From NCBI GenBank assembly GCA_002483145.1, contig DLHJ01000014.1, forward strand, positions 620,001-684,000: a stretch of DNA of 64,000 nucleotides. Reading direction: 5' to 3'. The notes under the pieces were generated by a model that was not told the origin of the DNA, made no database searches, and saw only the letters and a list, made by a program, of their open reading frames with translations. The translations under genes were made by a program, and so were the position numbers. This DNA is from Cellvibrio sp. UBA7671. Lineage in GTDB: Bacteria > Pseudomonadota > Gammaproteobacteria > Pseudomonadales > Cellvibrionaceae. This document shows positions 39,724 through 42,808 of this stretch, in pieces. Numbering within the stretch: the stretch's first letter is position 1; every line of letters begins with the position of its first letter.

Positions 39724-39809
39724 GCCAGTGTGGCGGAATTGGTAGACGCACCGGATTCAAAATCCGGCGCCCTTAAAGCGTGTCGGTTCGAGTCCGACCA
39801 CTGGCACCA
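39724..39809 (+). tRNA. tRNA-Leu (anticodon CAA)
   Basis: The sequence folds as an 86-nt type II tRNA. The acceptor stem is GCCAGTG/CACTGGC; the D-loop contains TGGTAGACGC; the anticodon stem is CCGGA/TCCGG with loop TTCAAAA. A variable arm is present and the T-arm reads GTCGGTTCGAGTCCGAC. The terminal CCA is encoded. It reads UUG codons. The 3' ends of such leucine tRNA genes are common phage attachment sites, and prophage DNA begins shortly downstream. I do not find a second copy of its 3' end in the window. Confidence 0.97.
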
Positions 39810-39822
39810 AACCCGTAAAATC

Positions 39823-40186: not shown

Positions 40187-40897
40187 ATGTGCGGATATGC
40201 ACGCAGGCACATCAGACTGGCAGACCTTGAAGAGTTCGTGAAACTCATAGGCCTCCTGGGCGCGTACCAGTTTGATCTATTCGATGAGGCGTTGCTGCAC
40301 TTCCGCCCGGCGTTCGGTGGCGCCGCACACCAGCAGATAAAGGATTTGATTATTAACGACGAGGGAAAATTAAAAACGGTCGATGCGACCTGGTGGTATC
40401 AGTGCGAGGAACAGGACGGCAAGTTGATCGTTGATAACAAACTCACCACCTTCAACGCACGCAACTTAACAAGCCGCTATTGGAAATCGGGCATACGCCA
40501 TCACCGCGCGATTGTATTGGCAACCGCCATTGGTGAAGGAAAGGAAGTCGATAAGAAAAAACACAGCTACTTCGTTGAAAGCGATACACCACTACTCATC
40601 GGCGCCGTGTATCGCAAGTTTGAAAACAATTTATACAGCACCGCAATCATCACACGCGATGAACACCCGCGCTTCTCTGAATTTCACGATAAAGCCTTCC
40701 CACTATTTTTACCGCCCGATCCAGAATTTTTACAGCTATGGCTAAGTGATGGACCGGAAACGCACCCGGCGATTGCGCACCTGCTAGAAAACCCGAGCAT
40801 ATTCAACACACTGAAAGTAACGGAAGTGAAAACGTTTAAAGATGCAGTAGCGAAAGGCGAAACCATAACGCTCGCCCCGGACGAACAAGCGGCCTAA
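40187..40897 (+). CDS. SRAP-domain protein (YedK/HMCES-like), divergent
   Basis: SRAP proteins use an N-terminal cysteine to crosslink to abasic sites in single-stranded DNA and protect them. The start was set at the ATG giving MCGYARR, with GGGAGG nine bases upstream, because Cys2 must be N-terminal after Met removal. The catalytic set appears complete: Cys2, Asn90 (TFNARN), Glu117 (AIGEGK) and His167 (EFHDKA). The usual aromatic motif around the Glu (GWFEWK in E. coli YedK) is replaced by IGEGK, so it is a divergent branch. The protein is 236 residues. It converges on the LexA-box gene pair, sharing four bases with the end of the second gene. Confidence 0.82.
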   Translation: MCGYARRHIRLADLEEFVKLIGLLGAYQFDLFDEALLHFRPAFGGAAHQQIKDLIINDEGKLKTVDATWWYQCEEQDGKLIVDNKLTTFNARNLTSRYWKSGIRHHRAIVLATAIGEGKEVDKKKHSYFVESDTPLLIGAVYRKFENNLYSTAIITRDEHPRFSEFHDKAFPLFLPPDPEFLQLWLSDGPETHPAIAHLLENPSIFNTLKVTEVKTFKDAVAKGETITLAPDEQAA

Positions 40898-41277
40898 CGA
40901 ACAACCGCCAGTTTTTGCACTGGCGGCTTACTGCTACGCGGTATGATGATTAATTTACCCTCCTTATCAGAAATCAAAAAAACCACCCATTGCCCGGGTG
41001 CAGACGAGGCCTGATCCGTTCGCCAGCCCAACACAACCTCATCTTCTTTTAAATCGATCCATTGGCACATCGCATGCGGGTTGCCGTTCGTGTAACGCGT
41101 CGCCAGCACCTTCACTTTGTGCCCGCCCTCATCATCAATTGAGCTGATATTCCTAACACCAGCGCAAGGAACACGAATTACAGTGCCCTTTAATCCCATC
41201 ACATCGACAATAGGAAAATCTCTTTGCCCGGCAACATCGCCAGCCCAAAACCGTTTGTAATATTCGATAGCCGACAC
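40894..41277 (-). CDS. Unrecognised small protein, second of a paralogous SOS-box pair
   Basis: I do not recognise this 127-residue protein. Over 83 ungapped residues it is identical at about 36 positions to the gene just upstream. Shared blocks are IRVPC-G, VKV-A-RY, VLGWRT-Q and a C-terminal beta-rich IIPR. The start was put at a GTG (protein V/MSAIEYYKRFW) because it aligns with the paralog's MAAIEY start; a longer open frame runs back into the upstream gene. The two form an operon under a LexA box (genes four bases apart). Its 3' end overlaps the SRAP gene on the opposite strand. Confidence 0.75.
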   Translation of the reverse strand: MSAIEYYKRFWAGDVAGQRDFPIVDVMGLKGTVIRVPCAGVRNISSIDDEGGHKVKVLATRYTNGNPHAMCQWIDLKEDEVVLGWRTDQASSAPGQWVVFLISDKEGKLIIIPRSSKPPVQKLAVVR

Positions 41278-41281
41278 AACG

Positions 41282-41653
41282 TCACCCTGTCGCTTGCAGT
41301 TGAGATGATTTGTCACTAACGCGCGGCACAATAATCGGAACGCCTTTGTCATCAACGAGCAGGTACACAATCCAGTCACCCATTGCCACATTGCTCTGGT
41401 TGGTACGCCAGCCCAATACAGCGTCATCGACGGATATATATTTCCAGTCGCTCTCGGTGGTTGCGTAAGTCTCGGAATAGCGCTCGGCTATCACTTTGAC
41501 GTAATGGCCTTTGGTTGTTTTGGTGATGCGCTCATTGGTAAAACCCACGCAGGGCACGCGGATTCTGGCGCTGTCCTTACCCATTACCTCCACTTCCTGG
41601 GCGATGGTGGAAGGCCAAATCGTATTTTTGAGTGTATATTCAATAGCGGCCAT
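41282..41653 (-). CDS. Unrecognised small protein, first of a paralogous SOS-box pair
   Basis: This 123-residue protein has no motif I recognise. It lacks the Ser-Lys peptidase dyad of UmuD/LexA. It is rich in beta-type segments (ARIRVPCVGF, VLGWRTNQ, WIVYLLVDD) and has a conserved single cysteine. A perfect AGGAGG ribosome site lies four bases before its ATG, and a near-consensus LexA box lies 14 bases upstream of the start. It should therefore be made strongly on DNA damage. The tandem paralog follows directly. Confidence 0.8.
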   Translation of the reverse strand: MAAIEYTLKNTIWPSTIAQEVEVMGKDSARIRVPCVGFTNERITKTTKGHYVKVIAERYSETYATTESDWKYISVDDAVLGWRTNQSNVAMGDWIVYLLVDDKGVPIIVPRVSDKSSQLQATG

Positions 41654-41666
41654 AGTGCCTCCTATA

Positions 41667-41682
41667 CTGTATTTTCATACAG
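41667..41682 (-). promoter_or_regulatory. LexA (SOS) box
   Basis: CTGTATTTTCATACAG is CTG-N10-CAG and matches the enterobacterial consensus CTGTATATATATACAG at 13 of 16 positions. It lies 14 bases ahead of the ATG at 41653, where LexA would cover the transcription start. A TAAAAT -10 candidate is next to it on the minus strand. Confidence 0.8.
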
Positions 41683-41754
41683 TACATTTTAAACACACTC
41701 GAGCCATCCTTGGAAGCCCCTTGGCTTATAACTATTACGTCGCAAACATAACTT

Positions 41755-42468
41755 TCATATAGTTCGAATTAGAGCAAAGCTCGCTTCGTCAAAATCAAAG
41801 CCAAAATTAAACAAGTGATCATCCTCGTCTTTGCATTCGATTGAGAAAAATGGTTCAGAAATTGAAGGCTTCTGGCCGTCTAGCCGGAAAGTTGCAATTG
41901 CGCCAGAATTAACGTGCGTGCCAACGAAATTAAAAACTAAACTTTCAAAATTGTAGGTAACTATTTTTAAATCTTTTGCGAAGCCCCTACCGTTATTTTT
42001 AATCTCAATGTCCCAACTCCCATTTGATTTTTTCAGGATCCTCGCTGTGAGTTCAGGCTTTATTTCACGCCTCCGGAGGTCTTCTAAGTATTTCTTATTC
42101 TCCTCGAATTCAGATCTATGAAAGTGATGTGCTTGCTCGGAAATATCAACTTGTCTTTTTGAGCTGTCAGCTATTATCTGGTTTGAGCGTACATAAAGTG
42201 ACAATTCAGTGAGCTGCGCTTCCAATGCCTTAGTATTTAATTGCAACTCCTCCCCCTGCTGCCTATACCCCGCAACCAACCAGAACAGCGCGAGTGGGGA
42301 CATAGTGCCCGCCAAAAAATCGCCTATCGCATTTGGGTCCATGGACAAAAACTTGTCCCATTTAAAAAACACATACGCCGCAACACCACCCAACCAAACA
42401 ACTGTAACCGCAATTGCCCACTTGGTTGATGTACGCATCTTTTGTTTTTCCTGCTTTATTTCTTCCAT
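41755..42468 (-). CDS. Two-helix membrane protein with coiled coil, possible exclusion/defence factor
   Basis: I cannot assign a function. The start was placed at MEEIKQEKQK (237 residues), since the longer frame adds 24 unlikely residues. Two membrane helices (residues about 15-35 and 50-70) surround a short loop, with the motif IGDFLAGTMSPLALFWLVAGYRQQ after it. A coiled coil follows (about 75-135), then a soluble beta-rich C-terminal domain. A similar helix pair with a GDxxxGxxxPxxxF signature opens the AbiC-like protein at 43177. It is divergent from the C4-like leader and AT-richer than core genes. Confidence 0.7.
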   Translation of the reverse strand: MEEIKQEKQKMRTSTKWAIAVTVVWLGGVAAYVFFKWDKFLSMDPNAIGDFLAGTMSPLALFWLVAGYRQQGEELQLNTKALEAQLTELSLYVRSNQIIADSSKRQVDISEQAHHFHRSEFEENKKYLEDLRRREIKPELTARILKKSNGSWDIEIKNNGRGFAKDLKIVTYNFESLVFNFVGTHVNSGAIATFRLDGQKPSISEPFFSIECKDEDDHLFNFGFDFDEASFALIRTI

Positions 42469-42579
42469 ATCTACCCGCCCACTAAAAGTAAACAAAAACC
42501 CCGTTATTACACAATATTGCACTGTATTACACATTGACACAGCAAACCACCCGCACTACTCTACCAATGCAACGGCAAA

Positions 42580-42808
42580 ATCCGCTGCCAGGACTGGTAC
42601 TCCTGAAAACTTTCTAGGAGCAACAAGCGCGCTCTGCGCTTTTTTTGTTGCTGGCTTTCGGCTACCTTGCGTTATGGCGGCTGGGCGGGGCTACCCTTCG
42701 GGGTGGGCCGGTTTCCTAGAGTTCCGGTAGTACCAACCCTGTCCAGTCGCCTCCATGACTTGGTACTCATGCAGGCGGTTTTATAGGAAATTAAACTAGG
42801 TCTGTATT
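42580..42808 (+). ncRNA. Structured leader resembling phage C4 antisense RNA
   Basis: The stretch folds into several strong elements. AGCGC-GCTCT-GCGCT with T7 at 42626-42646 is terminator-like, and flanking CAACA/TGTTG extends the stem. GGCTACCC-TTCG-GGGTGGGCC forms a hairpin at about 42689-42709. CCGG...CCGG encloses a loop with TTTCCTAG, whose CCTAG is complementary to CTAGG at 42796-42800, the ribosome site of the next gene. AGTACCA (42729-42735) can pair either with TGGTACT at 42595-42601 or with the copy at 42761-42767. This layout resembles C4 RNAs of P1/P4-type prophages as I remember them. No covariance search was possible. Confidence 0.5.

Follow-up and report, generated by a model that had tools for sequence, protein, structure and literature searches.

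The prophage end analysed here carries an operon of two tandem paralogous genes preceded by a LexA (SOS) box, and the gene family to which both belong has such a box upstream at 17 of the 18 loci counted across 17 genomes, all from a single bacterial order. Because the boxes are conserved, it is well supported from sequence comparison that this is a dedicated SOS-controlled family. A gene for an SRAP protein adjoins the family gene at five of the loci, including this one. The paralogs may be accessory DNA-damage-tolerance factors within an SOS module of a P2-like prophage, acting in the same pathway as SRAP, a reading to which we give a probability of about 0.45. The window, i.e. the whole stretch of 64,000 nucleotides analysed, is C11:620001-684000 of a 5.04-Mb genome that is 99.85% complete.

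The features of the locus are itemized in Table 1. Passing inwards from attL the first genes are those for SRAP (plus strand), paralog 2 and paralog 1 (both minus strand), followed by the LexA box. An earlier sequence-only reading had described a box, tandem paralogs and a convergent SRAP gene, and this is borne out by the coordinates, scores and translations. The perfect AGGAGG that it placed before the 123-residue gene is present, and its score of 13 of 16 for the box against the inner 16-mer stands. The gap of 14 bases given between the two was wrong; only 3 bases separate the 16-mer from the AGGAGG, and 13 separate it from the ATG of paralog 1. The second gene is a paralog as stated, with 47 of 123 aligned columns identical (38%, E 2e-26). 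The 3′ ends of paralog 2 and the SRAP gene do overlap (40894-40897), and at only four bases this was rejected as a special feature. Between the operon and the isrK-family RNA lies a 261-aa reading frame on the minus strand (41755-42540) that matches PHROG 9267 (unknown function); none was seen at the corresponding spot in the second complete prophage carrying the family (genome G029).

Table 1. Positions of the features discussed, in window numbering unless a locus (L) is named
Feature	Position	Strand	Remarks
tRNA-Leu (CAA), integration site	39724-39809	+	
attL, 64-bp direct repeat at tRNA-Leu 3′ end	39748-39811	+	Partner L015 15784-15847 = C11:699784-699847
SRAP gene (P0003)	40187-40897	+	236 aa; Pfam PF02586; Cys2, Asn90, Glu117, His167
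Paralog 2 (P0002)	40894-41277	-	127 aa; GTG start; 4 bases after paralog 1
Paralog 1 (P0001)	41282-41653	-	123 aa; ATG start; AGGAGG 4 bases before ATG
LexA (SOS) box of paralog operon	41665-41684	-	17/20 to consensus; unique in window
isrK-family RNA, neighbour outside operon	42569-42646	+	Rfam RF01394, 61.5 bits (cut-off 50)
C4 antisense RNA family, neighbour outside operon	42670-42757	+	Rfam RF01695, 64.1 bits (cut-off 45)
Gene after isrK and C4	42809-43132	+	107 aa; no Pfam match
LexA boxes abutting the start codon in relatives	L062 7345-7364; L096 6313-6332; L095 3877-3896; L104 5184-5203; L105 4977-4996; L106 5357-5376		

The prophage comprises 40.1 kb between the att repeats in the tRNA-Leu gene, with sheath, tape-measure and baseplate genes and an integrase. 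From its contractile tail genes, integrase and 64-bp repeats it is classed as P2-like, and the flanking repeats confirm the prophage location proposed earlier for the module. A tailocin was considered and dropped on account of the integrase and of capsid-side genes that are seen, by eye, beyond the window.

The box has the sequence TACTGTATTTTCATACAGTA and agrees at 17 of 20 positions with the Escherichia coli 20-mer used for scoring, which we take to be TACTGTATATATATACAGTA. It is the sole match with three mismatches or fewer in the 64 kb. Matches at this level occurred in 0 of 100 shuffles for the 20-mer, and in 12 of 100 for the 16-mer. No other 20-mer of the prophage reaches 14/20; 20 order-1 simulations of the prophage gave a mean of 0.35 sites at 14/20 and 0 at 16/20. 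The strict inner form CTGTATNNNNATACAG is found at three places in the whole genome, one of which is this box. The second precedes an imuA-like gene (named from sequence and position) and scores 17/20. The third (L003 1499-1518, G000:C15:62279; 15/20) is near a gene that resembles, by eye, a cytosine methyltransferase. Since the host lexA promoter (two 14/20 sites) and the imuA-like promoter both carry sites, host LexA plausibly reads boxes of this type. No separate LexA box accompanies the SRAP gene of the prophage.

The 18 loci consist of ten found first and eight found later by protein profile alone. A weak match in G605 (E 0.0076, four stops) was left out of the counts, as was a further copy in G424 that is truncated (L110 8239-8514, E 9e-6, no box near), with which the box would be present at 17/19. 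A class-level search of 369 genomes returned the genome itself and the weak G605 match, and no member beyond this genome was found among 398 genomes at phylum level. GTDB contigs gave one locus (L028), the family protein of which is the same as that of G029, and protein searches of phages, plasmids and IMG/VR gave no family match. The family is coherent: a profile built from any ten of 11 members recovers the remaining one (E ≤3e-10, Z=10000). The alignment of these 11 contains few invariant residues, and a catalytic pattern is not evident.

The paralogs, unrecognised in the sequence-only reading, matched no library family at its cut-off, for 11 members in Pfam, eight in PHROGs and the two paralogs in NCBIfam; PADLOC gave no match for four members. 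A Ribosomal_S3Ae hit for P0001 (E 0.0034) was below cut-off, occurred in one of eight members and was taken as chance. Searches of the PDB by sequence reached E 0.18 at best with P0001, and 0.047 with the profile. Structure prediction, which had been suggested earlier, gave an AlphaFold model from three sequences with strands and one short helix, but at a mean pLDDT of 35.8 this is unusable. The open-licence papers searched yielded no description of the pair. What is new is the family of the paralogs; the setting is of a known kind.

The boxes of the family score at least 16/20 at 16 of the 18 loci. Among the first ten loci nine have a box, eight of them at 16/20 or better. The best 20-mers within 120 bases upstream score 17 in this genome (G000), G029, G411, G025 and G133, 19 in G140, 16 in G018 and G050, 14 in G028 and 11 in G015. 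Of random 123-base stretches drawn from the fetched loci, 0.5% reach 16/20 and 0.9% reach 14/20, frequencies that are inflated by these same boxes. The later eight loci, found by protein profile after the pattern had been seen, all have a box (16 to 19/20), and each has exactly one listed box in about 10 kb. It lies 12 bases or fewer from the start in five of them, and 309 and 283 bases upstream in G406 and G424 C167 respectively; in G424 C178, a copy with a stop in frame, the distance of 325 bases is counted to an inner motif. An 84-aa reading frame lies between box and family gene in G406 and G424 C178; the order of LexA box, 84-aa gene and family gene (L109 4609-5246 and L111 4995-5543) gives these operons a different first gene. 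One half site is weakened in the boxes of G018, G050 and G347.

At six of the 18 loci (G140, G050, G133, G385, G422 and G347) no more than one base lies between the box and the ATG (Table 1), leaving little room for a ribosome-binding site. The placement suggests leaderless mRNAs at these loci. Box and SRAP gene are both missing at one locus of the 18, G015, a combination that the sequence-only reading had named as telling against its proposal. The best site there, 11/20, is no better than chance (33% of random stretches). Its spacing to the ATG equals that of the box here, and the gene lies by tRNA-Leu with no prophage genes recognised nearby. Because of the chance-level box and this location, G015 looks like a decayed remnant. 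The boxes thus support the LexA control proposed for the paralogs and, as they are conserved beyond this genome, also the earlier suggestion of a damage-response module.

The family is carried by P2-like prophages here and in G029 (with 55-bp repeats). In G028 the gene is beside baseplate-like genes (by eye) and in G133 beside a terminase gene, and both were counted as P2-like. It adjoins an integrase gene in G140 and, by eye, in G411. In G018 it is part of a conjugative element with genes for a coupling protein, a T2SSE/VirB11-like ATPase, TrbI and a resolvase. For part of the family, carriage on mobile elements is shown by these neighbouring genes. Beside the G029 copy (L009 5413-6721) are an AHH-family nuclease gene (Pfam AHH) and a 188-aa gene, perhaps a toxin and its immunity protein, and the G140 locus has a match to the RT-15 RNA family (L062 1031-1218, 150.6 bits).

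These distributions also fit a family that acts on the SOS response or the cell cycle of the host as a feedback factor of mobile elements; its target might be RecA, LexA, a polymerase or a division protein. Of the features of the family, LexA control is conserved best (17/18) and is independent of SRAP, the proteins are small, and they are found on phages as well as on the conjugative element. However, Pfam- and NCBIfam-type libraries include DinI, SulA and PsiB, and no match was obtained at cut-off for the 11 members scanned in Pfam or the two in NCBIfam. We consider such a role unlikely.

A little less likely again is that the paralogs are an SOS-made antirepressor, disabling a repressor that RecA cannot cleave, like Tum of phage 186, and so a prophage induction factor. 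LexA-controlled antirepressors are known in Tum, AntC and those of Gifsy, as described in passages of PMC3121763. Next to the integrase, both complete prophages with the family have a gene for a small protein (102 aa here, 130 aa in G029) with weak HTH matches and no peptidase match. From their position the products are candidate prophage repressors, and in each prophage exactly one 20-mer reaches 14/20, at the family gene. The isrK and C4 RNAs, parts of known antirepressor switches, nevertheless precede another gene in both prophages. The order isrK, C4, gene is the same in G029 (L009 7287-7842), where there is also a second C4–isrK pair (L020 118-302, minus strand). According to a passage of PMC4825925, the operon that isrK leads into in Gifsy-1 includes the antirepressor-like gene anrP. 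The trio of isrK, C4 and 107-aa gene is possibly an antirepressor switch of these P2-like prophages, and the 107-aa gene would, by position only, be a better antirepressor candidate than the paralog pair. The antirepressor was set aside as first choice because the isrK–C4 pair marks this better candidate next door, and because of the copy on the conjugative element. The family is moreover found beside SRAP elsewhere, and the members scanned in Pfam, PHROGs and NCBIfam had no match at cut-off to families of the Tum, AntC, GfoA or DinI type.

SRAP proteins, which include YedK and human HMCES, protect abasic sites. P0003 scores 49.8 bits against PF02586 (cut-off 27.1), and its Cys2, Asn90, Glu117 and His167 are invariant in 13 aligned SRAPs. 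The roles of the catalytic Cys, Asn, Glu and His residues in YedK are set out in a part of PMC9436759; P0003 residues were paired with these by eye from motif order, and the pairing is partly shown in an alignment to 2f20. A scan of the 18 loci, each 6 to 20 kb long, with a profile of the 13 SRAPs found SRAP at five, always adjoining the family gene, and none within the 6 to 16 kb examined at the other 13. The linkage noticed earlier between the paralogs and SRAP thus holds at these five by profile and position. SRAP is downstream on the same strand in G028, G140 and G025, divergent across one box in G347 (E 3e-7), and convergent in this genome only. The N-termini are MCGY (here, G140 and G025), MCGR (G028) and MCGG (G347). 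A putative SRAP remnant in G411, of 21 codons from MCGR, was rejected as too short, and was missed by the profile. Antisense coupling of the two transcripts, a possibility raised by the sequence-only reading, was rejected as the convergent layout is not conserved, the order elsewhere being co-directional or divergent and SRAP being absent at 13/18. Since those 13 loci have no SRAP nearby it is not required; SRAP is a frequent partner of the family, not an obligatory one.

SRAP genes are also found with LexA boxes apart from the family. In G023, G029 and G022 a P0003-like (MCGY) SRAP and an imuA-like gene point away from each other across one LexA box; G010 has the same layout with a broken SRAP, and in G028 a canonical SRAP is divergent from an imuA-like gene at a LexA box. 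A box lies somewhere in the stretch at six of the 13 top-match SRAP loci (own genome left out), whereas the 9 of 16 obtained on adding three loci picked for a known box is not a fair rate. The P0003 query matched no phage record and no IMG/VR contig, and a canonical SRAP query matched 59 phage records. The family is absent from the eight of these that were examined, and one of the eight, Pseudomonas phage F116, has a LexA box (17/20) before a 171-aa gene upstream of SRAP that has no similarity to the paralog family. The F116 order (L081 1603-3149) is LexA box, F116p69, F116p68 and SRAP F116p67, another arrangement of box, small gene and SRAP. A further one, at L076 6400-6770 and L077 1440-1810, has a LexA box, a frame of ~80 aa unlike the paralog family by eye, and an MCSVF-type SRAP; in L076 the unit is beside an HTH–integrase pair resembling that of this prophage.

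Least likely is SOS-induced cargo unrelated to repair (defence, toxin or other lysogenic conversion), brought beside SRAP by gathering at att ends: att ends do collect cargo, G029 has its AHH nuclease gene beside the family copy and 13/18 loci have no SRAP, but three SRAP layouts, with same-strand order in three genomes and a shared divergent box, make crowding unlikely in our judgement, and PADLOC gave no match for the four members scanned.

In the preferred reading, that of damage-tolerance factors acting alongside SRAP, LexA would repress the two-paralog operon at the attL end of the prophage, a cargo position. Upon DNA damage active RecA would bring about cleavage of LexA and the paralogs would be made, as the conserved boxes imply. 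The neighbouring SRAP, with its catalytic residues kept, would as a member of its family form cross-links to abasic sites on single-stranded DNA, giving them the protection that YedK gives. The paralogs would act at stalled or single-stranded DNA in the same pathway, presumably touching SRAP or DNA, and mobile elements meeting the host SOS state would spread them. A more specific form, regarded as rather doubtful, is that the paralogs represent a family of SOS effectors not known before, which phages and conjugative elements spread within one order and which works together with SRAP on DNA that is abasic or single-stranded. It might load, release or regulate SRAP–DNA cross-links. Counted against the preferred reading are the 13/18 loci without SRAP, the want of a fold or library match, the few invariant residues, the SRAP gene here without its own LexA box, and G015 without box or SRAP.

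To our knowledge little is known of the control or resolution of bacterial SRAP cross-links. A small family under the same switch that repeatedly adjoins SRAP can be tested directly as a candidate partner and, if the more specific form is true, would be a dedicated bacterial SRAP partner. With these findings the SOS regulon that mobile elements carry gains a conserved, as yet unnamed family, and the arrangement suggests a portable damage-response kit.

Passages of Aravind et al. 2013 (PMC3765255) tie SRAP to SOS operons and prophages and propose a role in phage induction. The SOS-linked SRAP (YedK/HMCES) operons given there are like the present one in having SRAP with SOS-controlled partners, and in prophage copies. 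The partners named in those passages include UmuCD, ImuA-ImuB-DnaE2, DinB, ImuB-C, LexA, Ku, ligase and helicase; the paralog family is not among them. The stand-alone ImuB-C domains are also small, described as strand-rich, and found in operons with SRAP (same source); the 11 of 11 family members scanned differ in having no Pfam match at cut-off, a comparison in which the Pfam model for ImuB-C is unconfirmed. The operons of 186 Tum, N15 AntC and Gifsy GfoA/GftA are likewise short, LexA-controlled and in prophages, and the repressor candidate here has no peptidase match. The present family is tied to these by no match in the libraries scanned, and it occurs in addition on a conjugative element and next to SRAP. 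In Acinetobacter an SRAP gene at locus CP9, taken as a cryptic prophage, is listed among DNA-damage-inducible genes in a part of PMC7273328. Acinetobacter DdrR, as presented in the same part, differs from the paralogs in being controlled with UmuDAb, not LexA, and in occurring in nearly all species of its genus; it is alike, by description, as a protein with no known homologues that is small, lineage-restricted and DNA-damage-inducible.
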